From Narthecium ossifragum (Eukaryota > Streptophyta > Magnoliopsida > Dioscoreales > Nartheciaceae), in the NCBI GenBank assembly GCA_963920575.1, contig OY986971.1, positions 14,808,492-14,872,491 on the forward strand: a DNA stretch of 64,000 bases, read 5' to 3'. Under the pieces are notes generated by a model. The model was not told the origin of the DNA. It ran no database searches and was given only the letters and a program-made list of their open reading frames with translations. Positions within the stretch are counted from its first letter, which is position 1, and the number at the start of each line of letters is the position of its first letter. The translations under genes were made by a program, and so were the position numbers. Shown here in pieces: positions 5,745 to 59,103 of this stretch.

Positions 5745-6226
5745 GGATCGATCCAGAACATTTGGATCGATCCAGGAATTTTGGATCGATCCCAAAGTGG
5801 TTTGGATCGATCCAGACGCTTTTCCAGAGAGCCAGACTTTCTGTCAAATATTGGATCGATCCGGATCCTTAATGGATCGATCCAAAAATCTTTCTCCAGA
5901 GAGCTTGGTACATATTGGATCGATCCAGATCTGTAATGGATCGATCCATAATCCTTTTCCAGAGAACTATAATTCTCTGGTACATATTGGATCGATCCAT
6001 ATCTGTAATGGATCAATCCATAATCCTTTTCCAGAGAACCATGATTCTCTGGTACACATTGGATCGATCCAAATCATTATTGGATCGATCCATAAGCCCG
6101 TTCCAGAGAGCTATGATCCTATGCTACACCTTGGATCGATCCAGACCCATATTGGATCGATCCAAGTTGTTAGAAACCCATATTTTGACATCTTGGATCG
6201 ATCCAAATCTATTTCAAATCGATCCA
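5745..6226 (+). repeat. GGATCGATCC palindrome array with 72-bp tandem units
   Basis: The 10-bp palindrome starts at 5745, 5764, 5783, 5804, 5853, 5874, 5917, 5938, 5989, 6010 (one change), 6061, 6082, 6133, 6154 and 6195, with a degenerate one near 6217. From 5917 it comes in pairs 21 bp apart, and the pairs repeat exactly every 72 bp (5917, 5989, 6061, 6133). Between pairs lies an inverted repeat, CCAGAGAA then a short loop then TTCTCTGG. The array ends about 65 bp upstream of the TATA box. Confidence 0.9.
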
Positions 6227-6289
6227 AGATCGGCTGACGGGTAAAAATGGACGGTTCTGATATGATCCGCGGGTCCACGACTTGAAGCC

Positions 6290-6298
6290 TATAAATAG
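6290..6298 (+). promoter_or_regulatory. TATA box of solo LTR family D
   Basis: TATAAATAG follows the palindrome array and precedes a CT-rich leader (CCACTCTTTTTCCCTCC near 6330-6347). Spacing and context fit a Pol II promoter in U3. Confidence 0.7.
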
Positions 6299-7362
6299 AG
6301 GCTTTGGCTCTGATTTGAGAATCTTTTCTCCACTCTTTTTCCCTCCTTTCTCCATCCTTCTTCGCCCTTAGAGTGAGAGAGAGATTGAGTGCTTCAAGGG
6401 TTGGATTTTGATGGAGAAGATGGGTAAAGCCTCCTCTTCCACGGAGATCCTACCTAAGATGAGTAGCTAAATTCCTCCTCCTTGGGAATTTCATGATGTA
6501 TTAGGGCTTTCTCTTAGATTTCTCTTTTGATTCTTGATGTAATGACTCTTGAGAGATGGTTTTTATATGAATTCTCATGTAATTCTATATTTCTTTAATG
6601 AATTCCATTGTTGAATGGTTTGATTACCTTGTTTTGCATGTGATTACTTGAGAATATGATGATGCCTACTAGATGTTTGATTCAATTTCTCAAAGAAGAG
6701 GCTATGCTAGAACCATAGCCAATTCTAGGGGATGAATCCTTGATCTAGGGATAGGATCTTGAGGTGCTAGAACCACCCCAAGCCAAAGCTATCATACCCA
6801 CTATTCTCGACTTAGATGAGGGATGGGATTGAGGTATTAAACCGATCTCAATCCAAGACCTTATCCATACAAAGCCTTGATCATTTGCCAACAATATGAC
6901 CTTAGTCCGACAATCGTTGAGCTATGATCGAATTAGAGCCCCGATCATGGATTTTTACCTTGTTATGCACGCGATGAGATGATCCTAACCCGACATCTCA
7001 TTAGCGGTGAGCGATATTAATCCTACGCTCGTCGATATCCAATTTAGATGATCTCTTGAGTGTCATGCATCTTGATTCATAGAGATAATATTTAGACCCT
7101 AATTCGGATTGGAATTCCCTAGGACTTCTTCCTTGATAAATTTCCTCCTTAGTTGTTTTAGAATACTATAGTTAGAAAACTCCAATAATCAATCCAATTG
7201 TTTTTAACTATTGTAGAGACTATATTGCATTTGTAATTTGACCATCCAATTCCTTGAGGATTCGACCCGTACTCCCATTAACTACGTTGTAGTTAAGTAG
7301 TAGTCGGGTAATTTTTTTTGTCCGCCTTTGATATAATTAACGACATATTTTAAGGCACGTCA

Positions 7363-8194
7363 CACCCTCATCCTCATTATATTTATCACTAATATGCACA
7401 TCATCATCATTCAACTCATCATGTAGACGTTCAACTTGAGGTTCCTTATAGGGGGTCTCACTAATATGCTCATCCTCATTTTGATCAGTGTAAATAGACA
7501 TATTATCATCATGAACAACCGACAATTTAGCATAATAACCATCATCATCACTATCATCAAAAAAACTTGCTTCATAAGAATGACCGAAATACATATAATA
7601 AGGCCCAGAATGTACAACCGGATAACATTCATCAACATCATCAACTGTATCATCCAGAGTAGGCAAAATAGTATTTTCAGCAGCTGGCAAAACATTATCA
7701 ATAGCATCATGAACTGGCAACGTATCACAAGCATTATAGCATGCATCAACATCATTAGAAAGATAAGCATCATGATCATTGTCATCATAAACAAGAGGCA
7801 TAGAATCATATCCATCCACTATATCATCAAAAGAGTGACTTACGTTAGCTATTTGTCTGGCCGGGACTTCTAGTTTGTCTATCAATTGTGAGTTTTTAAC
7901 TTGATCAATTATAAATGGTTCTTGTTGTACTTGTGACTGATCAGTGAAGGGGTTCTCAATTTTGTCACATTCCCTAGAAAGTCTATCCTCAACCAAGGAT
8001 TTACGAAATTCTACTAAGGAATTATTAATTTCTTCCATTACCTTAAGAATATCATCTAGAGTTGGCTCTTGTTGTGCTTGTGCTGCAGGGTGAACAGGTG
8101 GCTCATACCAGTATTGTTGCGGTGGTTGTGCTTGAAAAGGATATGGCAGTGCGAAATTAGATGCAAAATCTTGGGCCATATCCTTTTCAACCAA
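7363..8194 (-). CDS. Acidic ORF of the Athila-derived element, unknown function
   Basis: The open frame reads 285 codons from 8194 to 7337. The last eight codons or so come from the solo LTR inserted at 7362, so the native C-terminus is lost. The N-terminal 60 residues are rich in Pro, Gln, Ala and Tyr (for example PYPFQAQPPQQYW). A probable helix follows (LDDILKVMEEINNSLVEF, about residues 46-63). The rest is strongly acidic with runs such as FFDDSDDDG. I see no zinc knuckle, protease or polymerase motif. By position after the primer site it could be a gag remnant or an element-specific protein of a non-autonomous family. Codons 46-61 also exist as an inverted copy just outside the ORF (8202-8235). 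Confidence 0.4.
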
Positions 8195-8235
8195 GGAACA
8201 TAGATGATATTCTTAAGGTAATGGAAGAAATTAAT
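8024..8235. repeat. Perfect 34-bp inverted duplication of part of the acidic ORF
   Basis: Bases 8024-8057 and 8202-8235 are exact reverse complements, separated by 144 bp. The similarity continues outward past a 3-base gap (AAGGAATT against AAGGAATTATT). The right arm, read on the plus strand, encodes the same peptide as the ORF (DDILKVMEEIN), so a piece of coding sequence has been copied in inverted orientation. Confidence 0.85.
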
Positions 8236-8579
8236 TCCTTGGTTGAATGTTAGGAGGCTGGTAACCTTGAAATTGCCAACTAGGGTATGTATGATCTCTA
8301 AAATTCGAATTATAAGGGTATGAATGTGAATTATATGTCGGATTAGAGAAACCATATGTGTCATTATTGTAAGCGGGTCCATATAAAAATCATCAATGGA
8401 CATGGCACCTGGTGGCATATAAAAATTAGCCATGCATGCAAGATCACATAAATAAGGACTGTTGATCCTAACCTTGTTTTGATGATGCCAATATACATTA
8501 AATGATAAAATATATGTTTAATATTTATTACCCCTTTAATTGGAAATCTAAATTTCAATGTTTAAGTTATTTTTGTACT

Positions 8580-9085
8580 GACGGTCGATGCAAGGATCGA
8601 CCGTGGGAATGTGGCGGTCGATCCATTGATCGACCGTAGTGAATGGTTCATACTTGGCTATATGCGTATTGACGCGACGGTCGATCGGTGCATCGACCGT
8701 CGGAAGCGTTTTTCTTGACAGAGGCTTACGGACGATGCGACGGTCGATGTGGCGGTCGACCGTGGCGCATCAATGAAGAAAGTAAAGACGCGACGGTCGA
8801 TCGGTGCATCGACCGTGGGAAGCGTTTTTCTTGACAGAGGCTGATGGACGATGCGACGGTCGATGCGGCGGTGGACCGTGGCGCATATATGAAGAAATAT
8901 CAAGGAGCGACGGTCGATTCGAGCATCGACCCTGGGAAGCGACTTTCTCAACAGAGGCTCACGGACGATGTGACGGTCGATGTCACGGTCGACCATGAGA
9001 GCGACGAACGATGCGTGGATCGACCGTCGAGCAAAGAGGCTGAGTTTTTTATACGTGACGAACGATGGACGGATCGACCGCTAGC
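8580..9085 (+). repeat. ACGGTCGACCGT-type palindrome array with a 117-bp period in U3
   Basis: Units starting CGACGGTCGAT occur at 8674, 8791 and 8908, exactly 117 bp apart. Each holds a perfect or near-perfect hairpin. At 8674 an 11-bp stem CGACGGTCGAT pairs with ATCGACCGTCG across a 6-base loop. A second pair of TCGA sites follows 50-70 bp later, after the constant phrase TTCTTGACAGAGGCT. The array ends about 80 bp before the TATA box. Confidence 0.88.
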
Positions 9086-9162
9086 AGCGCGCAGAGTAAA
9101 AACTAGCCGTTGGAGAGTTGCGGGGAGCCGTTGGACCTCCTTGTTGAGCTGGTTGAAGCCCA

Positions 9163-9172
9163 TCTATAAGTA
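9163..9172 (+). promoter_or_regulatory. TATA-like element of the Copia-1 LTR
   Basis: TCTATAAGTA lies downstream of the palindrome array and upstream of the conserved R-U5 sequence. The same element is kept in the 3' LTR near 19138 and in Copia-2 near 22898. The Copia-2 3' LTR has lost it to a deletion. Confidence 0.6.
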
Positions 9173-9633
9173 GTTCCTTGATGTAAACTTGCCAGAACTT
9201 TTATCATTATTATTGAGATCATTTGAGCAAGCTCTAGGAAAGATTTCTACTTATTCTCCTTGAGCTAAAACCTTTGTAAACCTTCTTCAAGTGTGAAGAA
9301 GTATCTTGAGAGTTGTTCAACAGCAAGTGGCTGTGATTGTAAGGTCACCAAGACCCAGGAAGCTTGGAGGAAAACCTTGTAAAGAATTTGCAAGTAGTGG
9401 AACCTCAAGGAGAGCCTTGAGAGAAGTGGACGTAGACCAAGGTTTGGGTCGAACCACTATAAAACGGTGTTATCTCTCTAACCCTCTCCTTCATTTAATT
9501 CTTGCATGCTGTTGTAGCTAAGGTTCAATTCGTTTACAAGCATTCAAGCTGTTAGATCTTTTTCTATCTGAATTTTCCATCAATCTAGTTTTTCGAAAAG
9601 AGTCCAATTCACCCCCCCTCTTGGACCTTCAAT

Positions 9634-9645
9634 TGGTATCAGAGC
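9634..9645 (+). other. Primer-binding site, initiator tRNA-Met type
   Basis: TGGTATCAGAGC follows the 5' LTR after two bases. It is the usual complement of the 3' end of plant initiator tRNA-Met used by copia elements to prime minus-strand DNA. Confidence 0.93.
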
Positions 9646-9695
9646 TAGGTCTCTAATTTAGTGGTGTAACAACTCTTAGAGGATCCTATCTAGAG

Positions 9696-11408
9696 ATGGA
9701 AAACATAGAGGGACAAGCTACCAATAGGCCACCCTACTTCAATGGTTCAAACTATAATTACTGGAAAACAAAAATGGAAATTTTTGTTCAATCCATGGAC
9801 TATGAGGCATGGTTGGTAATAGAGGATGGACCTTATGACCCTACCAAAATTGTTCATGGAAAAGATGTCCCAAAGACAAAGAGTGACTACACCCCAATTG
9901 ACCTCGAAAACCTTCAAACTAATGCCAAGGCCAAAAGCTTTCTATTTTGTGCCCTTAGTCCTAGTGAATTCAATAGGGTCTCTACATGCAAATCAGCAAA
10001 GGAGATATGGGACAAACTTGAGATTACATATGAGGGAACTAGCCGGGTTAAAGAGTCAAAGATAAGTATGCTAGTACATGAGTATGAACTATTTTGCATG
10101 AAGAATGATGAAACTATTAGTGAGATGTTTACACGTTTTACTAACATATTAAATATGTTTGAATCTCTTGGAAGAATTTATGCTAACAATGAGGTTGTGA
10201 GGAAGATTCTTAGGTGTGTACCTAAGTCTTGGGATCCTAAAGTGACAACGATCGAAGAAGCCAAGGATCTATCCAAACTGCCACTAGATGAGCTTATGGG
10301 TTCCCTAATAACTTATGAGATGAACTTGAAGAGGAGCAACGAAGAGGGAGACAAAAAGAAGAAGACGATTGCCTTCAAGTCATCTAGCAAAGACTCATCC
10401 GATTCAAGAGATGGAGATGACGATGAGGAGTTGGCGATGATATCAAGAAGAATACAAAAGATCTTCAAACGCCAAGGAGGAAATAAATTCTTCAAGAAGA
10501 AATTCTCCAAAGGTGAAAAATACAATTCTACTTCTTCTAACTCAAATGAAATAATATGTTATGAGTGTAGAAAACCTGGACACTGCAAGTCCGATTGCCA
10601 TCAACTCAAGAAGCCTTCAAGGAAGGAGTTCAATAGTAGGAAGGCAATGGTGGCTACTTGGGGAGAAAGCGATGTGGAGACTTCATCCGATGAAGAAGAA
10701 CAAGAGGTAGCCAACATATGCTTAATGGCACATGGAGATGAGGAAGAAGAAGAAAATGAGGTAGAGGATGAGCTTGCATTTGAAGAACTTTTTTATGCTT
10801 ATCATGCTTTAGCTAATGATTTCAAAGTCCTTAAAAAGAAAAACTATGCTACTTGTAAGGACTTGAAGAAAGTAGAAGAAGAAAAGTAGATGCCATGCAT
10901 AGAATTGGGACTTTAGAAAAAGAAAATAAATGCATGCTAGAGAACAAGTCTAGTGACACAAATGACACACTTAAGGATGAACTCAAGGACACTCAATATG
11001 AGCTCACCATATTGAAGAACACAAACTATGATATGCAAAGGGAACTTATCTTCTTGAGGAAATCCAAGAGAGATCTCACTCTAGAGGTTAATGACCTAAA
11101 AATCACTATGGCTAAATTTGTGAAGAGTAGAGATAAGCTAGATGAGATCCTTGATAGCCAAAGGAACTCCTTAAACATGGAAGGAATTGGCTAACTTTGT
11201 TAAAGCTTCTTCTCTTCCTCCTAAGGTAACACAAGCACCTACATGTCATTATTGTTGCAAAGTAGGTCACATTGCACCTAGTTGCTATCTCATGAAGAAT
11301 GCTAATGCTAAGAAAATCTGGTCACCTAGATATTCATCTTCTTCTCTTATGCATAGTACTAATGCAAATGGACCCAAAAAGATTTGGGTACCAAAAATCA
11401 AGGTTTGA
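9696..11408 (+). pseudogene. gag: Copia-1 gag (nucleocapsid polyprotein), broken by two frameshifts
   Basis: Begins MENIEGQATNRPPYFNG, followed by a gag core of about 200 residues with the conserved pattern W...L...Y.G. A first CCHC zinc knuckle (CYECRKPGHCKSDC, about residues 285-298), an acidic segment and a coiled-coil-like region follow, then a second knuckle (CHYCCKVGHIAPSC). Compared with Copia-2, one A is lost at about 10886-10889, giving a premature TAG, and 35 bp are lost near 11181, at a CTA microhomology. The native stop is a TGA at 11406-11408 after KKIWVPKIKV, shared with Copia-2. Gag packages the RNA in cytoplasmic particles. This copy cannot make a full-length protein. Confidence 0.9.
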
Positions 11409-11464
11409 TCTCCTATTTGTAGGATTGCTTGAGATCCAAGATCAAGACCAACTCAAAGGCTAAA

Positions 11465-12784
11465 AGATGGTACCTTGATAGTGGATGCTCAAGACATATG
11501 ACGGGTTAAAAGAGCATGTTCTCAACCCTTCAATCTAAAGATGGAGGAATGGTGACTTTTGGAGATAATGGAAAAAGAAAAATTATTGGCATTGGCAATA
11601 TTGGTAAAACCTCTTCCATTATTATTGAAAATGTTCTCTTAGTTGAAGGTTTGAAACATAACTTGCTTAGCATTAGTCAATTATGTGATAGAGGTAATAA
11701 AGTTATTTTTGAAGATTCAAAATGCTATGTTAAGAATGCTCTTAGTGATAAAATCTTGCTAGTAGGTCATCGTGATGGTAATGTATACACATTTTATCTA
11801 AATGATCTTGTTTGTCATGATGATCTATGTCTTAGTGCTTTAAATGATAATTCATGGTTATGGCATAGAAGACTTGGACATGCTCACATGCATTTAATTT
11901 CCAAACTCTCTCGAAAAGACCTTGTTCTTAGACTTCCCAAGATCAAATTCGAGTAAGACAAGATTTGTGATGCATGTCAAAGAGGAAAACAAGTAAAATC
12001 CTCTTTCAAGTCTAAAGATGTAGTGTCTACCACAAGAGCACTAGAACTCATTCATATGGACCTTTTTGGGCCTACTAAACCAACTAGCTTAGGTGGTAGC
12101 TCATATGGATTTGTTTTAGTAGATGACTACACTAGATACACTTGGGTGATTTTCCTTGCATACAAAGATGAAGTCTTTGAGGAATTCACCAACTTTTATA
12201 GAAGAGTCCAAAATAAGAAAGGTATTCTCATTACATGCATTAGAAGTGATAATGGAGGAGAATTCAAGAACTCCCATCTAGAAAAGTTTTGTAATGACAA
12301 TGGGATTTCCCATAACTTCTCTTCACCTAGAACCCCTCAACAAAATAGTGTTGTTGAAAGGAAAAATAGAACCCTACAAGACATGGCTAGAACTTTATTA
12401 TGTGAAAATAATCTTCCTAAGTATTTTTGGGCCGAAGCAATCAATAATTCTTTCCATGTAATAAATAGAGTAAACTTAAGACCCATTTTGAAGAAAATCC
12501 CTTATGAGCTTTGGAAAGGAAGAATTCCAAATATTGGGTACTTTAGAGCTTTCGGTTGCAAATGTTTTATCTTGAACAATGGCAAGGATAGTGTTGGAAA
12601 ATTTGATACTAGATCCGATGAAGGAGTCTTTCTTGGATATTCAGGAAGAAGTAAAAGTTATAGAATCTTCAATAAAAGGACTTTGGTGGTTGAAGAATCA
12701 ATGCATGTTACATTTGATGAAATGATTTTAATTCCTAGTAGAATTGATAATGGTAAAGATGAGCAAATCCTAAATGACAATTGA
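11465..12784 (+). pseudogene. pol: Copia-1 protease and integrase region, broken by stops
   Basis: The protease active site lies in WYLDSGCSRHMTG (DSG at 11477-11485). A TAA at 11507-11509 follows it. The GAG-pre-integrase zinc finger is recognisable (WHRRLGHAHMHL ... CDACQRGKQ) but is cut by a TAA at 11954-11956. The integrase catalytic triad is present: D in HMDLFGP, D in RSDNGGEF, E in VVERKNR. The usual PQQNG is PQQNS here. The frame ends at a TGA at 12782-12784 where Copia-2 reads a sense codon. Integrase inserts the cDNA into host DNA in the nucleus. Copia-2 shows this frame once continued into reverse transcriptase. Confidence 0.9.
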
Positions 12785-12885
12785 AAAGACTTATTGGATG
12801 AAACCCAAAATGATGTTGAAGAATTGAATGTTAGATTTGAGGAATCCCTTGATCAGCATCATTAGTTGGTGATCAGCATCATTAG
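12785..12885 (+). other. Decayed linker between integrase and reverse transcriptase of Copia-1
   Basis: About 100 bp homologous to 28147-28247 of Copia-2 but altered. The phrase GATCAGCATCATTAGTTG is tandemly duplicated (12853-12888) and replaces a stretch encoding IIPSDQHHELP. This creates in-frame TAG codons, so the long polyprotein is interrupted here. Confidence 0.7.
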
Positions 12886-14544
12886 TTGCCAAAGGATTGG
12901 AAGTATGTATCTTCGCACCCAAAGGAATTGATAATTGGTGAACCATCAAGAGGAATCCAAACAAGATTTTCATTAAATACTTGTGCAAATTTAGCCTTCC
13001 TATCTCAAATTGAGCCTAAAACGATAGAGGAAGCACTAGAGGATGATCATTGGATCCTAGTAATGCAGGAAGAGTTGAATCAATTTGAAAGAAATGAAGT
13101 TTGGAATTTGATACCTATACCTCATGATCATCCCGTTATAGGTACTAAATGGGTGTTTAGAAACAAAATGGATGAATCGAGAACAATTACAATGAATAAA
13201 GCTAGACTAGTTGCAAAAGGTTTCAATCAACAAGAAGGAATTGATTTTGATGAGACTTTTGCACCGGTAGCTAGACTTGAGGCAATAAGACTACTTCTTG
13301 CTTTTGCATCTTACAAAGATTTCAAATTATATCAAATGGATGTTAAGAGTGCCATCTTGAATGGTTTACTAAAAGAAGAAGTCTATGTTGAACAACCCCC
13401 CGATTTTGAAGACAATAAATTGAGGGATCATGTATTCAAACTCACTAAAGCCATGTATGGATTAAAACAAGCTCCTAGAGCTTGGTATGAAAGGCTTAGC
13501 AAATTCTTGAAGGATAATGATTTTTGTAGAGGAAAAATTGATACTACATTGTTTACCAAATCAAAATTCAAAGATTTGCTCTTGGTTCAAATTTATGTTG
13601 ATGATATCATTTTTGGTTCTACAAATGATAAACTTTGTGAAGAATTTTCCACAAGCATGCAAAGTGAGTTTGAGATGAGTTTAATGGGTGAACTCAATTA
13701 TTTTCTTGGTTTACAAATCATGCAAACTCGAGGAGGGATCTTTATTAATCAAGCTAAATACACTAGAGACCTACTCAAGAAATATGATTTTGTAGAATCC
13801 AAAATTTATAGAACCCCCATGTGTACAACACTAAAATTAGACAAGGATGAAGATGGGAAACCCGTTGAACAAACACTTTATAGAGGGATGATTGGTTCTT
13901 TACTCTATTTGACCGTTAGTAGACCGGACATCATGTTTAGTGTTTGCCTTTGTGCTAGATATGAATCTTGTCCTAACGAATCACATTTCGTTGCGGTCAA
14001 GAGGATTTTTAGATATCTAATAGGAACCCAAAATTATGGTTTGTGGTATCCTAGAAGATCATCTTTTGATCTAATTGGCTACTCCGATGCGAATGTTGCC
14101 GGATGTAGACTTGATAGAAAAAGCACAAGTGGTACATGTCACTTTCTTGGTCATGCACTTGTTTCTTGGTTCTCCAAGAAGCAAAATTTAGTTGCTTTAT
14201 CCACCGCCGAAGCGGAATACATTGCGGCGGGTAGTTGTTGTGGACAATTACTTTGGATGAAAATGCAATTGGAAGATTACAACATACATGTAGGCAAAAT
14301 GCCCATTAGATGTGACAACACTAGTGTCATAAACTTATCTAAAAATCCCATCTTGCATTCTAGAACAAAGCACATAGAAATTAGACATCATTTCCTTCGT
14401 GATCATGCACAAAAAGGAGATATTGCACTTGAGTTTGTTCGCACCGAACATCAAATTGCAGATATTCTAACCAAACCCTTGAGTGAAGACAGAATTCTCT
14501 ATCTACTAAGGGAGCTTGGGATGTCCAATGGATGTCCAAAATAA
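12886..14544 (+). CDS. pol: Copia-1 reverse transcriptase and RNase H, open reading frame
   Basis: An open frame of 552 residues. Reverse transcriptase spans about residues 70-315, starting with the copia signature [10 protein letters not shown] and [10 protein letters not shown]. The active site YVDD is at residues 237-240. RNase H follows from about residue 398: YSDAN at 400-404 (Copia-2 has YSDAD), [16 protein letters not shown], and a C-terminal [13 protein letters not shown]. It ends MSNGCPK. The domain is normally released from the gag-pol polyprotein by the protease and copies element RNA to DNA in the particle. Upstream stops mean it is probably not translated now, so it is an open remnant rather than a working gene. 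The D-to-N change in the RNase H motif is at the second acidic position, not the first. Confidence 0.9.
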
Positions 14545-15230
14545 AGGAGCTAAAAGGAAAAGGTATGGTCACCTCTTTAACTGCTTTTCATACCATATTC
14601 AACTTGAATGCTAAATTTTGGTAAATTAAGTTAATATCATGATTAATGAGTGCTTTTTGTCTCATAATATTTAGTTACACGTGCTTGCAAAGATTTGTGA
14701 TGTTTTGATTTAAAAATGATTTTAAATTGAATTTCAAAACTCACTTTCTGGGACTGACGGTTGATCCAGCCTTCTTGACGGTCGACCGTGCGTACCTTCG
14801 CACTGGACGGTCGACCGCCAACCTCCTCGGATCGACCGTGGGATGTCATTTTTAAACCCCTTGTGTGCCACGGTCGACCGTCAACTTCGTTGGATCGACC
14901 GTGCGATGGTTTTTACACAAAATGTGTGCGACGGTCGACCGCAAAGTTTTCGGATCGACCGTCGGCTATTCCTTTCTATACAAAACGCTCGCGACGGTCG
15001 ACCACCAAGTTCCTACGGTCAACCGCCACGGACCGTGTGACAACTTAAGTTGGGGCTTTTTCATCTTTTCCACTCCAATCTCCCCTTATAACTCCCGATC
15101 AAACCCTTCATTCCTCACTGGTTCAACCGTGCCCTAGCTCCTCTAAACGCCCGCAGCCACTACTCCTCCTCCTCTCTCTCTCAAACCGATCTCCTCCTTC
15201 CCACTCAAAACCCTAACAAGCTGGTGCACA
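14545..15230 (+). other. Inter-ORF region of Copia-1 between pol and ORF3
   Basis: This 686-bp non-coding spacer holds an AT-rich first half, the palindrome array at 14756-15033, a TATA-like CCTTATAACTCC near 15085 and a CT-rich leader (CTCCTCCTCCTCTCTCTCTC near 15160-15182) directly before the ORF3 start codon. The arrangement copies that of an LTR promoter. Confidence 0.7.
14756..15033 (+). repeat. Internal ACGGTCGACCGT array upstream of ORF3 (Copia-1)
   Basis: Units starting ACGGTCGACC lie at 14807, 14870, 14931 and 14993, spaced 61-63 bp. Each of the first three has a second site GGATCGACCGT placed so that the two TCGA cores are 20-21 bp apart. The spacer sequences differ from those of the LTR array, although the palindrome is the same. 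Confidence 0.88.
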
Positions 15231-16458
15231 ATGGCTCGCACCAAGAATGCTGGTCCTCCTTCACCTGAGGAACCAAGTCCACCTGGGAAACGGAAAAAGG
15301 CAGTCTCAAAGAAGCCATCCGGATCAAAGAAAGCCAAAGGAGCTCAAGGGTTCTTCAACCAATCCTCAACCTACCCCTTCCTACGACGAGTACTTCTTCC
15401 TAGATATGGAGTGGTATAAAACCTGGCCTGATTTTAAGGACAAATTCGTAGTCTCTGGTAGAGCTTTACAATTGCCCTTAAACAAAAAACATGTAGTTGA
15501 ACAATTCTTCACTGATATGGGATGGAACAAATTCTTAGAGATGCCTCAATACATCTATCCCGAAATGGTTAGGTATTTTTACTGCAATATGACTGAGGAT
15601 ATAGATGATGAAGGTTATGTAGCTATTACTAGCTATGTCTATGGTAATGAATTCAAAATTCCCATAGAATGGTTGAATGAGTTACTAAATGCACCTAATT
15701 CAGGAGAGTGCATTTACTTTACTTCTCTTGAGGATCTCAATAGAGTGGACAAGGATAAACTAGGGAGAAAGGCAATCCTTAAGCCTCTACTAGTTGAGAA
15801 AAACCCTATAGATCTAAATAGCCTAAACCAACAATTTCGGGAGCTTGCCCACTTCCTAGGAACAAAACTATTTCCTAAACTTGGCCATCATGATAATTTG
15901 AAACCTATCCATGCCTATGTTCTTTCTTGCATGGTTAGGAAGAAACCTCTTAACCTAGGTTATCTCATTATCAAGGAGCTGCTTAATCTAAATGCTAGGC
16001 AATCACTTCCTTTTTGGGGGCTTCTAACAAAAATTTTCCAAGCCCTCACCCTTAACCTAGCCGATGATGAATGCAAACCCCTTTCTCAACCCTTCAACAA
16101 GTCAACCTACAAGAGGATGAAGGCCGCCAAATGAGCTTTAGGCCTCAGTTGGCCTCATCTCAGTGCCGATGAAGATGATGAGCCTCAAGAAGAGCATGGA
16201 GAAGAAAATTTAGGGGGAGAGCCTTTAATTGAAGGACATCAAGGAGAAGCCTCTAGTAGCCAAGTTCGTCGCACCACGGCACATAGGCTTGATGATCTCG
16301 AAGCTAGATTGGGAAGAATGGAACTAAGTCTGGGAGACATCAAGACTTCCCAAGCATCGATCACCGGAGATCAAGCCAAGATGTCTCAGCAACTTGATGA
16401 GATTTTCACCTACATCAAGAATGAATTTCCACGTGGCACTCCTTTAGCAAGCCTCTAG
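15231..16458 (+). pseudogene. Copia-1 ORF3, broken copy of the 3' accessory gene
   Basis: Begins MARTKNAGPPSPEEPSPPGK like the intact copy at 30592-31821. A 2-bp loss near 15347 shifts the frame after about 39 codons, and a CGA-to-TGA change stops it at 16132-16134. Sequence homology continues to the TAG at 16456-16458. The N-terminus is basic and Ser/Pro/Lys-rich. The middle resembles plant transposon-associated domains (see the Copia-2 copy). Confidence 0.88.
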
Positions 16459-16976
16459 TGATTGATCCTAATTCCCCATCCTCCTTATCTCTTTTTGATA
16501 ATGCCAAAGCGGGAGAAAAACTGTGATGTGATGAATGTGAAAGCCCTACATTTCTACATTTCTACATTTCTTACTTTTGTATTTTGAAAAAGTTTGTTTT
16601 GAAATGAAAGTCTTGTAAGTTCAAAGTTTTCCAAATGATTTTGAATGGAAGTATTGTATGGAAATGTTGGAATCTTTTGAATGAAATGCAGATGTGTTTT
16701 GGATATTGCTATGATGTATTACTACAATGTTACAATGTTATAATCCAATATGAAATCACTTCATGAAAGTATAAATGTTATTATTGAAAAGAAGTGAACA
16801 TTCTAAAATCCAAACTATTATGTCAACATATCTTGAATGGAACTTTTAATATCATTTTAAAGATATATGACTTGTGTGCATCTTGAAAATTAACTTTAGA
16901 ACACATTTTTTTTAAGAAAAGGATGCATTGGTTAAGGGGGAGTCAAGATATTTTATCATCACATTTAAAAGGATTG
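16459..16976 (+). other. 3' untranslated region of Copia-1
   Basis: AT-rich, non-coding, closely matching 31822-32335 of Copia-2. It continues at 18440 after the solo LTR. The phrase GGTTAAGGGGGAGTCAAG near 16930-16947 is a second purine-rich tract upstream of the true polypurine tract. Confidence 0.75.
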
Positions 16977-18439: not shown

Positions 18440-18452
18440 GATTGTCGTCATC

Positions 18453-18466
18453 AAAAAGGGGGAGAT
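18453..18466 (+). other. Polypurine tract of Copia-1
   Basis: AAAAAGGGGGAGAT lies directly before the 3' LTR start TGTTGATCC. It is identical in Copia-2 at 32344-32357. Confidence 0.9.
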
Positions 18467-20403: not shown

Positions 20404-20408
20404 GTGTT

Positions 20409-23365: not shown

Positions 23366-23367
23366 AT

Positions 23368-23379
23368 TGGTATCAGAGC
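23368..23379 (+). other. Primer-binding site of Copia-2, initiator tRNA-Met type
   Basis: TGGTATCAGAGC, same position and spacing from the LTR as in Copia-1. Confidence 0.93.
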
Positions 23380-23429
23380 TAGGTCTCTAATTTAGTGGTG
23401 TAACAACCCTTAGAGGATCCTATCTAGAG

Positions 23430-25178: not shown

Positions 25179-25236
25179 TCTCCTATTTGTAGGATTGCAT
25201 GAGATCCAAGATCAAGACCAACACAAAGGCTAAAAG

Positions 25237-26962: not shown

Positions 26963-27024
26963 CTTTCCCAATGAATAAAATCAACAGTTTAGATCTAATC
27001 CATGGATGGAGAGACTTTGGGGGC

Positions 27025-35465: not shown

Positions 35466-35482
35466 GAGTCGGTTCGTTCGTC

Positions 35483-48664: not shown

Positions 48665-48669
48665 GACCT

Positions 48670-50395
48670 TGATGTGCTGTCGCAGGCACTCAAAAATAAA
48701 ACCAATACCCGTTAAAATGAATGTAGTAGTGCGAGTACGAGTCGATCCCACGAAGAGTGTTTAGCCTAGTTTTGTGCTAAGTGAACAAAGATGGGGGGTT
48801 TTAAACGTGAGGAAAAACAGTAAAGAAATAATCTAAAGCGAAGAAACGAGTTAAATCAAGAGAACAAACCTTGGTCTGAGTCAACATCCACCATCGGAAT
48901 CCAATAACTGATCATAGATGCAAGTATCAATCAATTTATACCATGAATATTCACCGTCCGAATTCAATTCGAAGCTCTCCTCGATCATAGTTAATTAGAA
49001 ACAAGCGATCTAATCAACCCTAACTACTAGACAACCTAAGACAAGCGCTGTAGATTTAATCTAGTAGCAGCGTTAAGAATAGGGAGATCGATGAAGCTAA
49101 ACAACACAAGCACAAGCGGTTGCATTTAATCTAGTTGAATATTCTTCCTAAGATATAACAAGATCTGATCAGCAGTAAATTATTAGATCCTAGTTGCTTC
49201 GCAGATTAGAGGGATCAAACAATTCCGGATTTGATATCAAACCTAGCGGTAGATCACCATGAATAATAAACTACTAGGCCTCATAGCAATTAGACAAGGT
49301 AATCATGAAGATTTAATCTCAGAAGAACATCCAATACTCATGTATAAACTGAACAATAAAAATAAATTAGATCTCACAGTTTCATTGATTCCGAGGTTTC
49401 AGTCTCCTCGACCAAGGCTCAAGATTTAGCCACGCAGGGCCATCAAGAACAATCCTCCAAAAGATTTCATAAAACAAAAGAAAACCTAGAAAAAATAGAA
49501 AAGAGGAGAAAGAGTAGCCAAAAGTGTCCAAGAATCCCCCCTCAAACCCTAGAAAGAGTCCTATTTATAGCCTCAATGTATCCACCCTCGGATTAGATCA
49601 CAATCGTCGATTTTTGTTACTGGGAAAGTCCGATCGATCGGACCTTGGATGCTGGATCGATCGGTCTTATTAAAATCTTCAACTTCAATTCACGCCCGAG
49701 CCCGATCGATCGGACTAAGGGAGTCGGATCGATCGATTTCATAAAAATCCTTCGTCTCTGGCTCTTCCCGAGTTCGATCGATGGTCCGATCGATCGAACT
49801 GTGTTACTCTAAAAAGCATACGTTCTGTCACCCTTTTATTCCCAAGTCCGATCGATCGAACTTTAAGTGCTGGATCGATTGGTTGAGTAAAAATCTGATG
49901 TTTTTGACTTTTTCCGAGTCCGATCGATCGAACCATTGGTGTCGGATCGATCGGACCCATAGGAGCGATGGAGGGATCGATCGGATGTGTTGTGGCTGAA
50001 AAACACATGTTCTGTCACGTTTTTGCGTGGTCCGATCGATCGGCGGAAAGCTCGGACTTCCAGCTTATTTTCCTTTCTGCCATTCAGACTGCGCATCGGT
50101 ACTGAAATTGCCGTAACTTCCTCTAGGAAACTCGGAATCACGAACCGTAAAATCCTCCAGAATCTAGACTTCAAGAGCTTTCCAACCATGTATGGCACAT
50201 CCTCTGGTTCCTCATGATCAGGTACAGATAAATCTTTAAAGTTGATCCAAGCACTCTTTTTAGCTTCTTTTCGACTTAAGGACTTCAATTGCATCCTAAA
50301 TCAAAATATAAGAATAATGAGTGTATTTAGAAACTAAATAAGCACAGGAGACTAAGTATTAAGGGATAAAAACATAACATTATGCATTCTCATCA
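48670..50395 (-). repeat. 3' LTR of the Athila-like element (family A)
   Basis: 1726 bp from TGATGTGCTGTCGC to ATTCTCATCA on the plus strand. On the minus strand: a 5' block shared with families B and C, the CCGATCGATCGG array (50045-49628), a TATA box (inverted CTATTTATAG at 49561-49570) and a U5 with the inverted GAGTCGATCCCACG signature. Confidence 0.96.
49628..50045 (-). repeat. CCGATCGATCGG array in the 3' LTR of the Athila-like element
   Basis: Same organisation as 58336-58752, described there. Several sites differ by single bases between the two LTRs, and such differences are more frequent here than in the rest of the LTR. Confidence 0.88.
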
Positions 50396-51882: not shown

Positions 51883-54800
51883 TTAGAAAGGTTTAAGTCG
51901 ATGGCCATTCACCGTAAACATTTTGGAAGTGGCTAAACTTTGAATTTCAACTGCACCATGAGAAAAAACATTAGTAACAATAAAAGGTCCAATCCAACGA
52001 GAACGCAACTTACCTGGAAACAAACGTAAGCGTGATTGGTAAAGGAGAACTTTTTGACCAACTTTAAACTCCTTTCTAGAGATGATCTTATCATGAAAAG
52101 CTTTTGTCTTTTCCTTGTAAATCCTAGCGCTCTCATAGGCATCATTGCGAATTTCCTCTAATTCTTGCAGTTGCAACTTCTGGTGTTCTCCACTCTCATC
52201 CACGTTCATATTAAAGCTCTTGATAGCCCAATAAGCTTTATGTTCTAACTCAACTGGAAGGTGACATGGTTTCCCAAATATCAAGCGATAAGGTGACATA
52301 CCGATGGGTGTCTTATATGCAGTCCTATATGCCCACAACGCATCATCCAAACGCAAACTCTAATCTTTTCTATTTGGATTTACCGTCTTTTCAATGATGG
52401 ACTTGATCTTTCGATTTGACACTTCCGCTTGTCCACTCGTTTGCGGATGATAGGCGGTTGACACCTTATGGGTCACAGGGTACTTCCTTAGCAACGTTTC
52501 CACAGTTCGATTGCAAAAGTGCGTGCCTCGATCACTTATGAAAGCTCTCGGAATTCCAAACCTGGATAATATGTTAGACTTGATAAAATCTGCAACAACT
52601 TTAGAATCATCAGTCCTGGTAGCTTTAGCTTCTACCCATTTTGAAACATAATCCACAGCAAGTAGAATATAAACATAACCAAAAGATATAGGGAACGGAC
52701 CCATGAAATCAATGCCCCAAACATCAAAAATTTCGCAAAATAATATGGGGGTTTGTGGCATCTCATTCCTTTGGGATATATTACCTTTCTTTTGACAATT
52801 TTCGCATGATTTACAAAGAAAGTATGAATCTCGAAATAAAGAAGGCCAATAGAAACCACATTCTAACACTTTTCTGGCCGTTCTCTTAACTCCAAAGTGA
52901 CCTCCACTAGCATAAGAATGACAAAAAGTGAGTATAGAAATAATTTCACTTTCAGGAACGCACCTTCTTATTACTTGATCTGCACAATGCTTCCATAAAT
53001 ATGGGTCATCCCACACATAATATTTAGCATCACTTTTAATCTTATCTCTTTGAGCCTTAGACAATTCAGAAGGTAACATATTAGTAACCAAATAATTCAC
53101 AATATTTGCATACCAAGGTAATGTCACAGTTGCAGAAAACAATTGTTCATCAGGGAATGTTTCCTGTAGACGAAGTTTATCCTCCACATGAACTAACCGA
53201 CTCAGATGATCTGCAACTCGATTTTCTGTTCCTCTTTTGTCTTTTATCTCCAAATCAAATTCACTGAAGAGAAGTATCCATCGGATTAATCTCGGCTTTG
53301 CCTCCTTCTTCGTCATTAAATAACGAAGGGCTGCATGATCAGAATAAACAATGACTTTAGTACCAAGTAAATAAGAACGAAATTTTTCTAAAGCAAACAC
53401 TACAGCTAAAAGCTCTTTTTCAGTTGTAGAATAATTTCTCTGGGCATCATCCAAAGTCTTGGAAGCATAGTAAATTGCATGAGAAGCTCTTCCAATTTTT
53501 TGACCCAAAACTGCGCCCACTGCATAATCACTTGCATCACACATTATCTCGAAAGGAATGCTCCAGTCTGGGGGTTGAATAATTGGAGTAGAAGTCAACA
53601 ATTCCTTCAGCTTATCAAATGCCTTTTTGCATGCTTCATCGAACTCAAAAGCCTTGTCCTTTTGTAACAACGTGCACAACGGTAATGCTATTTTGGAGAA
53701 GTCCTTGATGAATCTTCGGTAAAAACCTGCATGTCCAAGAAAAGAACGAACTTCCCGCACACTAGTGGGATAAGGTAAAGATTGAATGACATCAACTTTA
53801 GCTTTATCAACCTCAATTCCTTTAGATGAAACAACATGACCCAAAACTATACCTTGTTCAACCATGAAATGACATTTCTCAGAATTTAACACAAGGCTAG
53901 TTTCTATGCATCTTTGAAGAACAAGTGTAAGGTTATGTAAACAATTATCAAAGGAGTTTCCATAAACTGTGAAATCATCCATAAAAACCTCTATGATCTG
54001 TTCAATATAATCTGAGAATATACTAACCATACACCTTTGGAAAGTAGCTGGGGCGTTGCAAAGACCAAAAGGCATGCGACGATATGCAAAAGTTCCAAAT
54101 GGGCATGTGAACGTCGTCTTTTCCTGATCTTCAGGGGCAATTGCAATCTGAAAGTAGCCTGAATAACCATCAAGAAAACAATAATAAGAATGACCAGCTA
54201 ACCTTTCAAGCATCTGATCAATAAAAGGTAAAGGAAAGTGGTCCTTGCGGGTTATAGCATTTAATTTTCTGTAATCAATACAAACCCTCCACCCATTTTG
54301 CACACGGGTGGGAACTAACTCATCTTTGTGATTTCTCACCACGGTTATTCCTGTCTTTTTAGGAACAACTTGAACTGGACTAACCCAAGTGCTATCCGAA
54401 ATAGGATAGATCACTCCAACTTCAAGAAGTTTGAGGATCTCCTTCTTTACAACATCCATCATGGGCGGATTTAACCTTCTTTGTGGTTGGCGGGAAGGTT
54501 TCGCTCCCTCTTCAAGCAAGATACGATGCATACATGTACTTGGACTGATTCCCTTGATGTCTGCAATTGTCCAACCAATAACTGTCTTATGCTCCTTAAG
54601 AACCTGCACAAGTTTTTCTTCCTGTGGTGCACTAAGGTTATTGGAGATAATCACTGGTAATACTCCTTCATCTCCAAGAAAAGCATATTTAAGATGATTA
54701 GGAAGAGGTTTCAGATCTGGAATAGGTGCTTGCAATTCAGAAGGTAATGATTTCTCATTAGATACAGGTAATGAACTAGAAGAATCGTTACCTGATTGCT

Positions 54801-57240
54801 GAATTATCGAAAAATCATTCAGCGTTGCAACAGTTTCCTGCAAATTAGTACTCAAAGATAGCTCCTCATTTTCTTCCTCAAGAGATTTGCTAATAGCCAC
54901 TTCCAATTCATCTTTATCACTAAGTTCAAAAACTTCCTGTGATAAATAATCAATCACATCAATTGAATACACTGAACAATCATCAGCAGGATATTTCATG
55001 GCATCATAAATATTAAACTTAACAGTTTCACCATCAAATTCCATGGTAAGTGTGCCACTATGGACATCTATCTTAGTCTTGGATGTCTTCAAGAAAGGTC
55101 TTCCTAACAAAATAGGAGTACTATGATCACCATTCTCCATATCAAGCACATAAAAATCAGCAAGGAAAACTAAATCATTGACCTGCACAAGAATATCTTC
55201 AACTACACCTTTAGGATAGGCGTTAGATCTGTCAGCCAGTTGAATCACAACACCAGTTTCATTCAAAGGCCCAAGTTTTAAAGAAGAATATATAGAATAT
55301 GGCATGACATTGATAGAAGCTCCCAAATCTAACATAGCTTTCTCAAATTTGGTGTTACCAATTGTACATGGGATAGTAAACATACCTGGATCCCTACACT
55401 TCGTAGGAATTTTTCTTGGAAGAATTGCAGAAACATTTTCCCCTACTTTCACCTTCTCACATCCTTTAAGTTCCTGCTTCCTCTTAATTGTGCACAATTC
55501 TTTCAAGAATTTAGCATAACGAGGTACTTGTTTAAGAGCATCTAAGAGTGGAATATTTACCTCGCATCGGCGAAAAGTCTCATATAGATCTGAATTCTTC
55601 TCATATTTTCTTGATTCTGTCAAAGCCTGAGGAAAAGGAGGTACAGGTTTATAATCAAAAAGAGGTGGAAACTTACGTTTAGGTACATCGTCGTCATCAG
55701 GAAAGATTTTGTCCGCGACGATGTCTTGCTCTTTTCCTTGCACAGACGATGTAGGAACTTCCTTTATTGGAGTCTCAAGTTCTTTACCACTTCTCAAAAT
55801 GATTGCACTTGCATTCTCTCTTGGATTTATTACCATTTGAGAAGGTAATTTCCCCGAATTTTGTGCCTCTAGCTTGCTAATTGCTGACGCCATCTGGCCC
55901 ATTTGATGTTCCAAACCTTGGATACTGGCCTTTGCGTCTTGTTGAAATTGTTTTGTATATTGTTTAAATTGTTTTGTATCCTGTTGAAGTTGCATAGCAC
56001 TAGTAGCAAGGGAATTAACAATATCTTCTAAAGACATACCATAATTCGGAGTTGGATTTTGTTGTGGTCTCGGGGGGTATGGCGGTCTATATTGTTGATA
56101 TTGCTGTCCAGTTGGGCGAAATTGAGTTGTAGGCTGATTCACTTGTGGATTCCCATAGTTGAGATTGGGGTGAACCCTCCATCCCGGATTATACGTGTTT
56201 GAAAAGGGATCATACTTCCTTTGCGGTGGTCCTGGAAAACTCCCAGCTGCATTTACTTGTTCAATGGGCTCCTCTTGAAGAGTTGGGCACATATCTGTTG
56301 GATGTCCCGCCACCGAACAAATTCCACAAACCTTCGCTGTCTGCATATTACCTACAGCCATTTGACGAACAAGAGAAGTTAGACTCGCAATCTGTTGTTC
56401 AAGAGATGAAACATTTACCTCATTAACATGTTTTGAATAAGAATCAAGTCTAGTATTAAATTGTTGAGAATTAGCTGCCATATTTGCAATCAAGTTCCTC
56501 GCGGCTTCAGGAGTTTTATCCACCAAAGCTCCTCCACTAGCGGCATCAATCATACTCCTGTCATTGGTTAGTAAGCCGTCATAAAAATATTGAATAAGTA
56601 ATTGCTCATTAATTTGATGATGGGAACAGCTTGCACATAATTTCTTAAAACGTTCCCAATATTCATGTAGAGATTCTCCATTATGTTGCCTTACACCACA
56701 GATCTCTTTCCTAATGTTGGCCGCTCTTGAGGCTGGAAAATACTTCTCTAAAAACAACCTCTTCATCTCATTCCATGTAGTAATACTCCCAGATGGTAAA
56801 TAATAAAGCCAATCCTTCAAAGAAAACGGGAAGGCTCTCAATTTGATTTGATCTTCAGTCACCCCCATGGGTTTCATACTTGTGCACACCACATGAAGCT
56901 CCTTTAAATGCTTGTGAGGATCCTCGCCTGAAAGTCCATGAAAAGTAGGTAAGAGGTGTATTAGTCCAGATTTTAATTCAAAAGTAGTAGCAACATCCAA
57001 AGTAGGAAATGTAATGCATAAGGGTTGTTGATTCAAATCTGGGGCTGCAAGCTCTTTCAAAGTCCGATTTCCGGCCATGACTTCCTCCTCTAATTCAGAA
57101 TCACTGATAAATACGTGGTCAAGAGCCAAAACGTCCTCCTCAGGATTTATCCGAGCTTCCCTCCTTAACCTGCACAAAGTTCTTTCTATCTCTGGGTCGT
57201 ACTGTAAATCACCTTGATTAAAAGATCGAGCTATACTCAT
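51883..57240 (-). CDS. gag-pol: Athila-like gag-pol polyprotein, one internal TAG
   Basis: One frame of 1786 codons from the ATG at 57240 (the open frame extends two codons upstream) to 51883, with a single TAG at 52360-52362 where relatives have Trp ([17 protein letters not shown]). Residue numbers count from the frame start at 57246. Gag core at about 80-230, zinc knuckle [14 protein letters not shown] at 307-320, Gln/Pro-rich linker, protease with DLGA in place of DTG/DSG at about 640, reverse transcriptase at 930-1110 with active site FMDD at 1088-1091, RNase H from CDASDYAVG (about 1236) to ADHLSR, integrase with [10 protein letters not shown] and catalytic D in GIDFMGP, D in ISDRGTHF, E in GQAEVSN, then a C-terminal domain after the stop ([11 protein letters not shown]). 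Apart from the TAG everything looks functional. Confidence 0.95.
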
Positions 57241-57377
57241 AAACAATCAAGAGGATTCCGGCAAAACGAGAAAAAGAAATCAAGAAAATTCGAATAACTC
57301 TTTTTTTTTATGAAAATAAAGATCACAATAAACACAAAAATCAACTAGAATCACTCCCCGGCAACGGCGCCAAAATT
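57241..57377 (-). other. Leader and tRNA-Asp-type primer-binding site of the Athila-like element
   Basis: The primer site is the inverted TCCCCGGCAACGGCGCCA at 57355-57372, five bases from the LTR edge at 57378. The leader to the start codon is only about 110 bases. Confidence 0.9.
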
Positions 57378-59103
57378 TGATGTGCTGTCGCAGGCACTCA
57401 AAAATAAAACCAATACCCGTTAAAATGAATGTAGTAGTGCGAGTACGAGTCGATCCCACGAAGAGTGTTTAGCCTAGTTTTGTGCTAAGTGAACAAAGAT
57501 GGGGGGTTTTAAACGTGAGGAAAAACAGTAAAGAAATAATCTAAAGCGAAGAAACGAGTTAAATCAAGAGAACAAACCTTGGTCTGAGTCAACATCCACC
57601 ATCGGAATCCAATAACTGATCATAGATGCAAGTATCAATCAATTTATACCATGAATATTCACCGTCCGAATTCAATTCGAAGCTCTCCTCGATCATAGTT
57701 AATTAGAAACAAACGATCTAATCAACCCTAACTACTAGACAACCTAAGACAAGCGCTGTAGATTTAATCTAGTAGCAGCGTTAAGAATAGGGAGATCGAT
57801 GAAGCTAAACAACACAAGCACAAGCGGTTGCATTTAATCTAGTTGAATATTCTTCCTAAGATCTAACAAGATCTGATCAGTAGTAAATTATTAGATCCTA
57901 GTTGCTTCGCAGATTAGAGGGATCAAACAATTCCGGATTTGATATCAAACCTAGCGGTAGATCACCATGAATAATAAACTAGTAGGCCTCCTAGCAATTA
58001 GACAAGGTAATCATGAAGATTTAATCTCAGAAGAACATCCAATACTCATGTATAAACTGAACAATAAAAATAAATTAGATCTCACAGTTTCATTGATTCC
58101 GAGGTTTCAGTCTCCTCGACCAAGGATCAAGATTTAGCCACGCAGGGCCATCAAGAACAATCCTCCAAAAGATTTCATAAAGCAAAAGAAAACCTAGAAA
58201 AAATATAAAAGAGGAGAAAGAGTAGCCAAAAGTGTCCAAGAATCCCCCCTCAAACCCTAGAAAGAGTCCTATTTATAGCCTCAATGTATCCACCCTCGGA
58301 TTAGATCACAATCGTCGATTTTTGTTACTGGGAAAGTCCGATCGATCGGACCTTGGATGCTGGATCGATCGGTCTCATTAAAATCTTCAACTTCAATTCA
58401 CGCCCGAGCCCAATCGATCGGACTAAGGGAGTCGGATCGATCGATTTCGTAAAAATCCTTCGTCTCTGGCTCTTCCCGAGTTCGATCGATGGTCCGATCG
58501 ATCGAACTGTGTTCCTCTAAAAAGCATACGTTCTGTCACCCTTTTATTTCCAAGTCCGATCGATCGAACTTTAGGTGCTGGATCGATTGGTTGAGTAAAA
58601 ATCTGCTGTTTTTGACTTTTTCCGAGTCCGATCGATCGAACCATTGGTGTCTGATCGATCGGACCCATAGGAGCGATGGAGGAATCGATCGGATGTGTTG
58701 TGGCTGAAAAACACATGTTCTGTCACGTTTTTGCGTGGTCCGATCGATCGGCGGATCGCTCGGACTTCCAGCTTATTTTCCTTTCTGCCATTCAGACTGC
58801 GCATCGGTACTGAAATTGCCGTAACTTCCTCTAGGAAACTCGGAATCACGAACCGTAAAATCCTCCAGAATCTAGACTTCAAGAGCTTTCCAACTATGTA
58901 TGGCACATCCTCTGGTTCTTCATGAGCAGGTACAGATAAATCTTTAAAGTTGATCCAAGCACTCTTTTCAGCTTCTTTTCGACTTAAGAACTTCAATTGC
59001 ATCCTAAATCAAAATATAAGAATAATGAGTGTATTTAGGAACTAAATAAGCACAGGAGACTAAGTATTAAGGGTTAAAAACATAACATTATGCATTCTCA
59101 TCA
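57378..59103 (-). repeat. 5' LTR of the Athila-like element (family A)
   Basis: 1726 bp, TGATGTGCTGTCGC to ATTCTCATCA on the plus strand, followed by the GACCT duplication. Same organisation as the 3' LTR. TATA box inverted at 58269-58278 (CTATTTATAG). Confidence 0.96.
58336..58752 (-). repeat. CCGATCGATCGG array in the 5' LTR of the Athila-like element
   Basis: Cores GATCGATC start at 58340, 58412, 58484, 58558 and 58630, i.e. steps of 72, 72, 74 and 72 bp. All but the third have a partner 23 bp further on. Pairs have extended complementarity (CGATCGATCGGAC with GTCGGATCGATCG), so each could form a hairpin with a 7-base loop. The array ends about 60 bp from the TATA box. Confidence 0.9.

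Follow-up and report, generated by a model that had tools for sequence, protein, structure and literature searches.

Arrays of a TCGA-centred palindrome before promoters of Copia and gypsy retrotransposons in Narthecium ossifragum, and an accessory protein as their candidate reader

A stretch of 64,000 nucleotides from Narthecium ossifragum (contig OY986971.1, positions 14,808,492 to 14,872,491; hereafter the window) is rich in long terminal repeat (LTR) retrotransposons, with matches to copia-type gag and reverse transcriptase (RT) and to gypsy-type gag, protease, RT, RNase H and integrase. LTRs of both superfamilies hold arrays of short palindromes with TCGA at the centre, and the question raised by this locus is what reads them. 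An original prediction, made from the letters of the window, held that self-complementary 10–12-mers with a TCGA centre lie 20–80 bp upstream of the TATA box in every family concerned, that they may have arisen by convergence or by exchange of promoter cassettes, and that such a system would be new. The arrays are carried by Sireviruses, a group within Copia, as well as by several families of gypsy and by what appears to be a copia outside the Sireviruses. The best explanation as a whole, to which a probability of about 0.4 is given, is that the arrays would be read by a dimeric regulator, with an accessory protein encoded by some of the elements as the leading candidate.

The window contains 63 TCGA-centred palindromes of at least 10 bp; 200 first-order simulations gave 4.4 on average and never more than 10. 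Each of the remaining 15 palindromic cores occurs between 0 and 13 times. Among the 256 palindromic 8-mers, GATCGATC (56 observed, 1.13 expected) and GGTCGACC (28 observed, 0.37 expected) rank highest, and their reversed controls occur once each. Simulations, expected counts and reversed controls thus rule out chance and base composition as the origin of the arrays, the existence of which is confirmed. The unit common to them is the 8-mer GRTCGAYC; the predicted TCGA centre stands, but the shared unit is wider than had been proposed. The dominant bases that flank this core vary with the family, also as predicted. Neighbouring sites are 19–24 bp apart in 77 of 172 cases, followed by distances near 49–51, 59–63 and 70–72 bp. 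Intervals of LTR, or of DNA in front of an accessory gene, with limits drawn by the analyst and 16.8 kb in all, hold 77 of the 84 perfect GATCGATC or GGTCGACC sites. The other seven are at 1103, 19760, 19780, 20447, 20469, 21575 and 35133, and those from 19760 to 21575 form small GATCGATC groups between the two Sireviruses of the window, unassigned to a family.

The arrays are not confined to the window. In a sample of 200 kb, taken as 20 stretches of 10 kb from round coordinates picked by the analyst (L005–L024), GATCGATC occurs 130 times, with 2.63 expected, so that the enrichment is about 49-fold in sample and window alike, and 12 of the 20 stretches have at least three sites within 400 bp. 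Beside GATCGATC, only TATATATA and ATATATAT exceed 15-fold among the matches listed. The sequence CGAGCTCG is enriched 12-fold in the same sample (10 observed, 0.8 expected). When the whole genome is searched (379.4 Mb in 150 contigs), pairs of GATCGATC 8–30 bp apart are found at 83,717 places and the reversed pattern at 94. The original prediction had itself named two outcomes that would tell against it. Restriction to the window is excluded by these numbers; an equal density in random intergenic DNA is seen in part, in that the sample is as dense as the window, yet many of the sampled stretches match LTRs of the window's own families.

Consider next where the sites lie with respect to the promoter. 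Genome-wide, GATCGATC is 40–70 bp upstream of CTATAAATAG at 6,109 places (3133 + 2976), and the reversed control is found at none; the opposite order, with GATCGATC downstream of CTATAAATAG, occurs at 7 places (4 + 3). With arrays throughout the genome and this order repeated thousands of times, the claim of one type of site across Copia and gypsy is well supported. In roughly 100 places listed, the coordinates of which were read by eye, the gap between site and CTATAAATAG is 61–64 bp, save three at 52 bp. In many families a box near AGATCTAATCCGAG, weaker in the copia of sample stretch L018, lies in this gap and may be a second conserved promoter element. When 40 clusters, some of them related, are inspected for CTATAWA 10–110 bp off an edge, 18 have it off one edge, as compared with 3.5% of random positions. 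The distances from last site to TATA box are in helical phase (R = 0.71 at 10.5 bp, n = 13, p = 0.0007; in a stricter set n = 8, p = 0.02), a result that is suggestive only, because the families were picked after the distances had been seen. The rule of 20–80 bp in every family does not survive. Four Sirevirus LTRs have CTATAAAA 298–378 bp past the last site (377 bp in the 5' LTR of copy 1), in family D the distance is 85 bp, the LTR at 35.1–37.3 kb has a second array (array b, 35831–36064) downstream of its TATA box, and in 22 of the 40 clusters CTATAWA is found 10–110 bp off neither edge.

That the arrays are partly tandem repeats, and that the spacings of one family recur, is what would be expected of a function-free minisatellite, spread by slippage and gene conversion. 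When eight members of the LTR family represented at 35–37 kb are aligned, however, four GATCGATC cores are 99.1% identical, while identity is 43.7% for the four bases on each side, 54.1% for the other spacers and 82.4% for the upstream LTR, a contrast between core and spacer that is flattered by the anchoring of the MAFFT alignment on the cores. Conserved cores within hypervariable spacers, together with an order of array and TATA of 6,109 to 7, make neutral spread highly improbable. The same observations bear on the possibility that the arrays are above all sites of silencing by the host, where palindrome-rich LTR regions nucleate small RNAs and methylation. LTR palindromes are indeed reported as hot spots of small RNAs in maize Sireviruses in the accessible text of PMC5311732, but a silencing target should not remain 99% identical while its spacers drift, nor should it so regularly precede a TATA box. 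Silencing is therefore improbable as the principal role of the arrays, and may be a side effect of them.

The U3 region belongs to the 3' end of retrotransposon RNA. The copies within an array are mutually complementary, and the palindromes could act as nucleic-acid structure, i.e., as hairpins or dimer sites at the U3 end of the genomic RNA. This can be confronted with the symmetry of the bases that adjoin the core. In 332 sites, taken from 48 clusters of at least three in the window, in the sample and in loci chosen for holding arrays, these bases are symmetric in 185 cases, and 213 are expected from an independent half-site preference in each cluster. From this follows that the outer palindrome is explained by half-site preference, as with a protein dimer, rather than by pairing of arms, and that hairpins or RNA pairing are disfavoured. 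Since, in addition, the core is nearly invariant in the tested family and arrays also precede the accessory gene, a structural role is the least probable of the explanations considered.

Both Sirevirus copies in the window have an extra array, overlooked in the original prediction (Table 1), between pol and an accessory open reading frame (ORF) that matches PF20167, "putative plant transposon protein". The two Sirevirus ORFs score 73.6 and 69.0 bits, above the Pfam cut-off of 45 bits. Of four further elements or element-like pairs (L027–L030), L028 and L029, both gypsy, have a second array before an accessory ORF as well: at 3733–4123 in L028, 177 bp before the start codon, and at 3922–4680 in L029, 294 bp before it. 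A clear TATA box before these two gypsy genes was not established. When the accessory profiles of Sirevirus and gypsy are compared by hhalign, they align over 179 columns (E = 1.5e-7, probability 94%), and all three accessory proteins have a basic start: their first 60 residues carry a net charge between +5 and +8. A limitation of the protein to Sireviruses, in line with the lack of any copy in a tblastn search of the 20 sample stretches, is rejected, as L028 and L029 hold distant homologues. The relatives found are one Rhododendron protein and two from a profile search in which 7,995 candidates were scored; there were no gypsy relatives in viral contigs and no related solved structures.

A hint of who reads the arrays is given by their flanks. 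In all three elements with a gene (Sirevirus, L028 and L029), the LTR array and the pre-gene array have their dominant flanks in common, AC, TTTG and A-rich, respectively, and these differ from one element to another. The true pairing of LTR and pre-gene arrays is the best of the six, with a summed Jensen-Shannon distance of 0.48 and 2.99 for the next, a match that rests on three elements and six permutations, and which copying of arrays within an element would equally produce. That the two arrays of one element share specific flanks favours a reader encoded by the element. By motif, Athila C is closest to Sirevirus, and the 35–37 kb family is closest to L029.

Not only sites but also spacer sequence is shared. 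When 15 array regions are compared pairwise in both orientations, with TCGA sites masked and 100 shuffles, a 29-bp non-palindromic spacer is common to the Sirevirus U3 array and Athila C' (26/29 identical, score 43, shuffled maximum 24). For Athila C the agreement with Sirevirus is 23/29 (score 28, shuffled maximum 22), and a few weaker pairs of array regions narrowly beat their shuffles. A degenerate pattern of the spacer occurs 167 times in the genome (91 + 76; control 0), with variants that bridge both forms. The spacer of Sirevirus and Athila C and C' is inverted relative to transcription, and therefore suits an enhancer-like piece. The original prediction left it between exchange of promoter cassettes and convergence; in this one case the evidence is for exchange, and elsewhere convergence may still apply.

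Part of this picture is already known. Bousios et al. (2010) described the repeated motif (RM) of Sireviruses, i.e., palindromes present in many copies upstream of the TATA box of the LTR and also, in nine ENV-bearing Sireviruses, before the ENV gene (PMC2829016, accessible text). The Sireviruses of the window share the RM of Vitis, CGGTCGACCG, and that of tobacco Tnd-1, ACAATCGATTGT, is likewise centred on TCGA (PMC2829016). As far as the accessible text goes, that paper holds the RM to be specific to Sireviruses and absent from classic copia; here, by contrast, arrays, mostly with the core GATCGATC, are found in gypsy LTRs, in an apparent non-Sirevirus copia and before two gypsy accessory genes. 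The novelty originally claimed is accordingly too wide, as Sirevirus arrays before the LTR promoter and the ENV-like gene, including CGGTCGACCG in Vitis, have been in print since 2010 (PMC2829016). What stands of it concerns the gypsy elements: no description of arrays in gypsy LTRs, of arrays before gypsy PF20167-like genes or of the agreement in flanks was found in a partial coverage of the literature on LTR palindromes, GATCGATC and the accessory protein.

VANDALs are DNA transposons. In Arabidopsis they carry, like the elements considered here, dense non-coding arrays of short, family-specific motifs that change by tandem repeats, and there the motif is read by an accessory protein of the element, VANC, as shown experimentally together with demethylation, whereas here the counterpart is proposed from sequence (PMC5735166, accessible text). 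The VANC21 motif, YAGTATTAY, is unlike the present one in being non-palindromic, with its copies in one orientation (PMC5735166). VANC6 motifs occur in the unrelated AT9TSD1, which VANC6 affects (PMC5735166), and by analogy this can be seen as a precedent for an unrelated element that carries the motif. A VANC-like layout, with a family-specific array and an accessory gene in the same element, is found in Sirevirus, L028 and L029 only, and was not found in the gypsy-type element A of the window, L027 or L030. In Retand elements, TRP28 is similarly encoded by an accessory gypsy ORF between pol and the 3' LTR and is predicted to bind DNA, and about half of the elements have tandem repeats in the accessory region; unlike here, the ORF is antisense and matches PF04195 rather than PF20167, and a shared palindrome is not mentioned in the accessible text (PMC11963269).

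The proposed mechanism can now be stated. Each array would be a cluster of sites bound by a symmetric dimer of a sequence-specific protein, with NNGRTC as half-site, and this protein would act on the promoter that follows. Arrays of this kind lie at LTR promoters, and Sireviruses, like at least two of the gypsy elements, have another in front of the PF20167-like gene. The reader would be the accessory protein, with each lineage's version recognizing the common core and its own flank, and it would activate or un-silence both the LTR and its own promoter. An element without the gene would depend on the protein made by other elements, for which it carries the sites; in one case these would have come with the cassette shared with Sireviruses. 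We infer binding by a protein, the identity of the binder, activation over repression and use in trans from what can be read in the DNA, namely the core and its arrays, where these lie, how the half-sites behave, the second array, the flanks that match in three elements, the homology of the accessory proteins and the shared spacer. The candidate array binder is the accessory protein of Sirevirus copy 2, and the probability given to an element-encoded reader follows from the flanks that the two arrays of an element share and from the accessory protein being the sole candidate seen. Because the sites are kept in fast-changing DNA, repression is less likely than activation or anti-silencing. The wider proposal is that Copia and gypsy elements of this plant share one trans-acting system, in which element-encoded PF20167 nuclear proteins bind flank-specific GRTCGAYC sites both at the LTR and at the gene that encodes them, and gene-less elements join by gaining sites, cassette swaps across superfamilies included; this remains doubtful.

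A number of observations weigh against an element-encoded reader. The gypsy ORFs fall below the PF20167 cut-off (39.6 bits, 6.4e-10, for L028; 23.5 bits, 5.9e-05, for L029), and both are broken by stops. No PF20167-like ORF was found in L027, which has two sites per LTR, or in L030; element A has arrays, and no accessory ORF was found between its pol and 3' LTR; in the L018 copia, RNase H and LTR lie too close together to accommodate one. Athila C is known from its LTRs alone, and the 35–37 kb family was viewed without its far part. The flank groups Athila A/B, L018/L014 and L025 have no gene-bearing partner among the elements examined. The fixed gap between site and CTATAAATAG partly reflects common descent, since many places share the box near AGATCTAATCCGAG. 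An AlphaFold model of the accessory protein, from four sequences, is uninformative (mean pLDDT, the predicted local distance difference test, 33.6). In the literature, 4 of 13 RM-bearing Sireviruses are without an ENV gene and six ENV-bearing Sireviruses are without RMs (PMC2829016, accessible text).

These points lead to the main alternative, where a host transcription factor, or a family of paralogous ones, binds GRTCGAYC, the LTR families have gained sites for it by convergence or exchange, as ONSEN has for heat-shock factors, and the accessory gene merely has the same type of promoter. It is nearly as likely as the element-encoded reader, because element A and the L018 copia have arrays but no gene was found in them, and because RM and ENV occur one without the other. 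It also accords with the presence of one core in Sirevirus, in several gypsy families and apparently in another copia, with the promoter-proximal placement of the arrays, and with known host factors that act at LTRs. In ONSEN/ATCOPIA78 such host-factor sites likewise lie upstream of the LTR start site, but among the examples in the accessible text a single factor serves a single family, with no site shared across superfamilies (PMC12786077). What a single host factor leaves unexplained is that flanks differ between families and agree within an element, unless paralogues or array copying are invoked.

The features of the window are collected in Table 1. The two Sireviruses are identified by the junction of LTR and primer-binding site (PBS), CA-ATTGG-TATCAGAGC, at 9620 and 23355, by copia-type gag and RT domains (PF14223, PF07727) in copy 1 (8460–19606), to which copy 2 (22523–33386) is 96% alike, and by RM palindromes both in the LTR and before an ENV-like gene. 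The same junction is given for Sireviruses in the accessible text of PMC2829016. For the copia LTR array reported at 22641–22815, sites are indeed present, but they are hybrid GGTCGATC/GATCGACC sites only, and none is perfect.

Table 1. Positions of retrotransposon features in the window (TSD, target-site duplication)
Feature	Positions	Strand	Remarks
Family D array	5745–6226	+	14 TTGGATCGATCCAA-type sites; TATA 85 bp on
5' LTR, Sirevirus copy 1	8460–9631	+	TSD AGGAC; U3 array of CGGTCGACCG and hybrid GGTCGATC/GATCGACC sites, ~8595–9079
Second array, Sirevirus copy 1	14778–15003	+	between pol and accessory ORF
Accessory ORF, Sirevirus copy 1	15231–16452	+	PF20167 match in two frames (15217–16131, E = 6e-19); broken copy
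Athila-type solo LTR inside Sirevirus copy 1	16977–18439	-	TSD GATTG; no array, no CTATAAATAG
3' LTR, Sirevirus copy 1	18467–19606	+	array present
5' LTR, Sirevirus copy 2	22523–23365	+	TSD GGTTG; hybrid sites only
Athila-type family B solo LTR	26404–27989	+	TSD GGAGT; sites 26767–26959, TATA 64 bp further
Second array, Sirevirus copy 2	30141–30386	+	206 bp before accessory gene start; TTATAA 61 bp past last core
Accessory ORF, Sirevirus copy 2	30592–31818	+	409 aa; basic N-terminus and PF20167 domain (E = 2.4e-20, 73.6 bits)
3' LTR, Sirevirus copy 2	32358–33386	+	array; CTATAAAA 298 bp past last site
Solo LTR ("Tekay-like")	35151–37340	+	TSD TGACA; array a 35363–35462, TATA 22 bp on
Athila-type C' LTR piece	41356–42525	-	limits from BLAST; array 42300–42525 with Sirevirus spacer, inverted
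Athila-type C solo LTR	43075–44538	-	TSD CCTGC; ACGGTCGACCGT array 43962–44199
3' LTR, Athila-type element A	48670–50395	-	TSD GACCT; array 49628–50045
5' LTR, Athila-type element A	57378–59103	-	array 58336–58752; TATA 61 bp past last core

Element A is of gypsy type, with gag, protease, RT, RNase H and integrase matched when its pieces are searched apart; the label Athila, which comes from the original prediction, is putative. The gag-pol of element A (52360–57246, minus strand) reads open for 1628 codons and its LTRs are 98.5% identical, so that the element is a fairly recent insertion. Family D, represented by element L028, and that of L029 are assigned to gypsy by tblastn to element A (gag, E of 3e-56 and 2e-49; protease-RT, 1e-65 and 2e-58), with Pfam protease matches that are weak. 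The Athila-type families A, B, C and C', which had been counted as separate cases, have LTR sequence in common and are thus not independent. The array-free state of the solo LTR inside Sirevirus copy 1 is confirmed; as it lacks CTATAAATAG too, it is no proof that arrays can be dispensed with.

For the solo LTR at 35151–37340, "Tekay-like" is a putative label, taken over from the same source. A copy of its family in L018 is followed by a PBS-like TGGTATCAGAGC, a gypsy gag (PF03732) and a retroviral-type protease (PF08284); an SH3_Tf2-1 match lies on a neighbouring element, which is not necessarily the owner of such an LTR. On the minus strand of L018 there are copia RT/RNase H remnants, 36–42% like Sirevirus RT in two better stretches, which adjoin a purine tract and then an LTR-like stretch with a AAGGATCGATCCTT-type array and TATAAATAG 61 bp on. 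As the long Sirevirus linker is missing, this element, of which one LTR-like stretch is in view, looks like a non-Sirevirus copia.

The arrays are common and not universal, since an LTR-like repeat pair in L023 (244–1276 and 5112–6160) has no array site. Related to this pair is a repeat that the window holds in two copies, 95–97% identical, at 42526–43074 plus 44539–46181, split by the Athila C solo LTR, and at 61745–63998. In L025 (C1:741500–750499) two large arrays with ATGATCGATCAT flanks are 6 kb apart; there is no match to the retroelement proteins of the window, and L025 may represent a family that is non-autonomous and has a flank type of its own. Two long ORFs without a Pfam match, at 7337–8212 (minus strand) and at 3607–5412 in L027 (minus strand), are weakly alike (25.5%, E = 5e-7) and may encode a gag-like protein, or an accessory one, belonging to non-autonomous gypsy elements. 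A role of the palindromes in directing integration is not favoured, because none of the seven TSDs seen (AGGAC, GGTTG, GACCT, TGACA, GGAGT, CCTGC and GATTG) contains TCGA.

The site thus occurs in tens of thousands of pairs, in lineages from either LTR superfamily. If a host factor is the reader, it stands before many LTR promoters of this genome. If a family of element-encoded proteins reads the site, the role of the "envelope-like" accessory genes of plant retrotransposons becomes testable, and if the shared PF20167 control system is true, those genes would in such Sireviruses be regulators, not envelopes. Retrotransposons of different superfamilies would then share, or steal, one activator, as with VANC6 and AT9TSD1, but across superfamilies.

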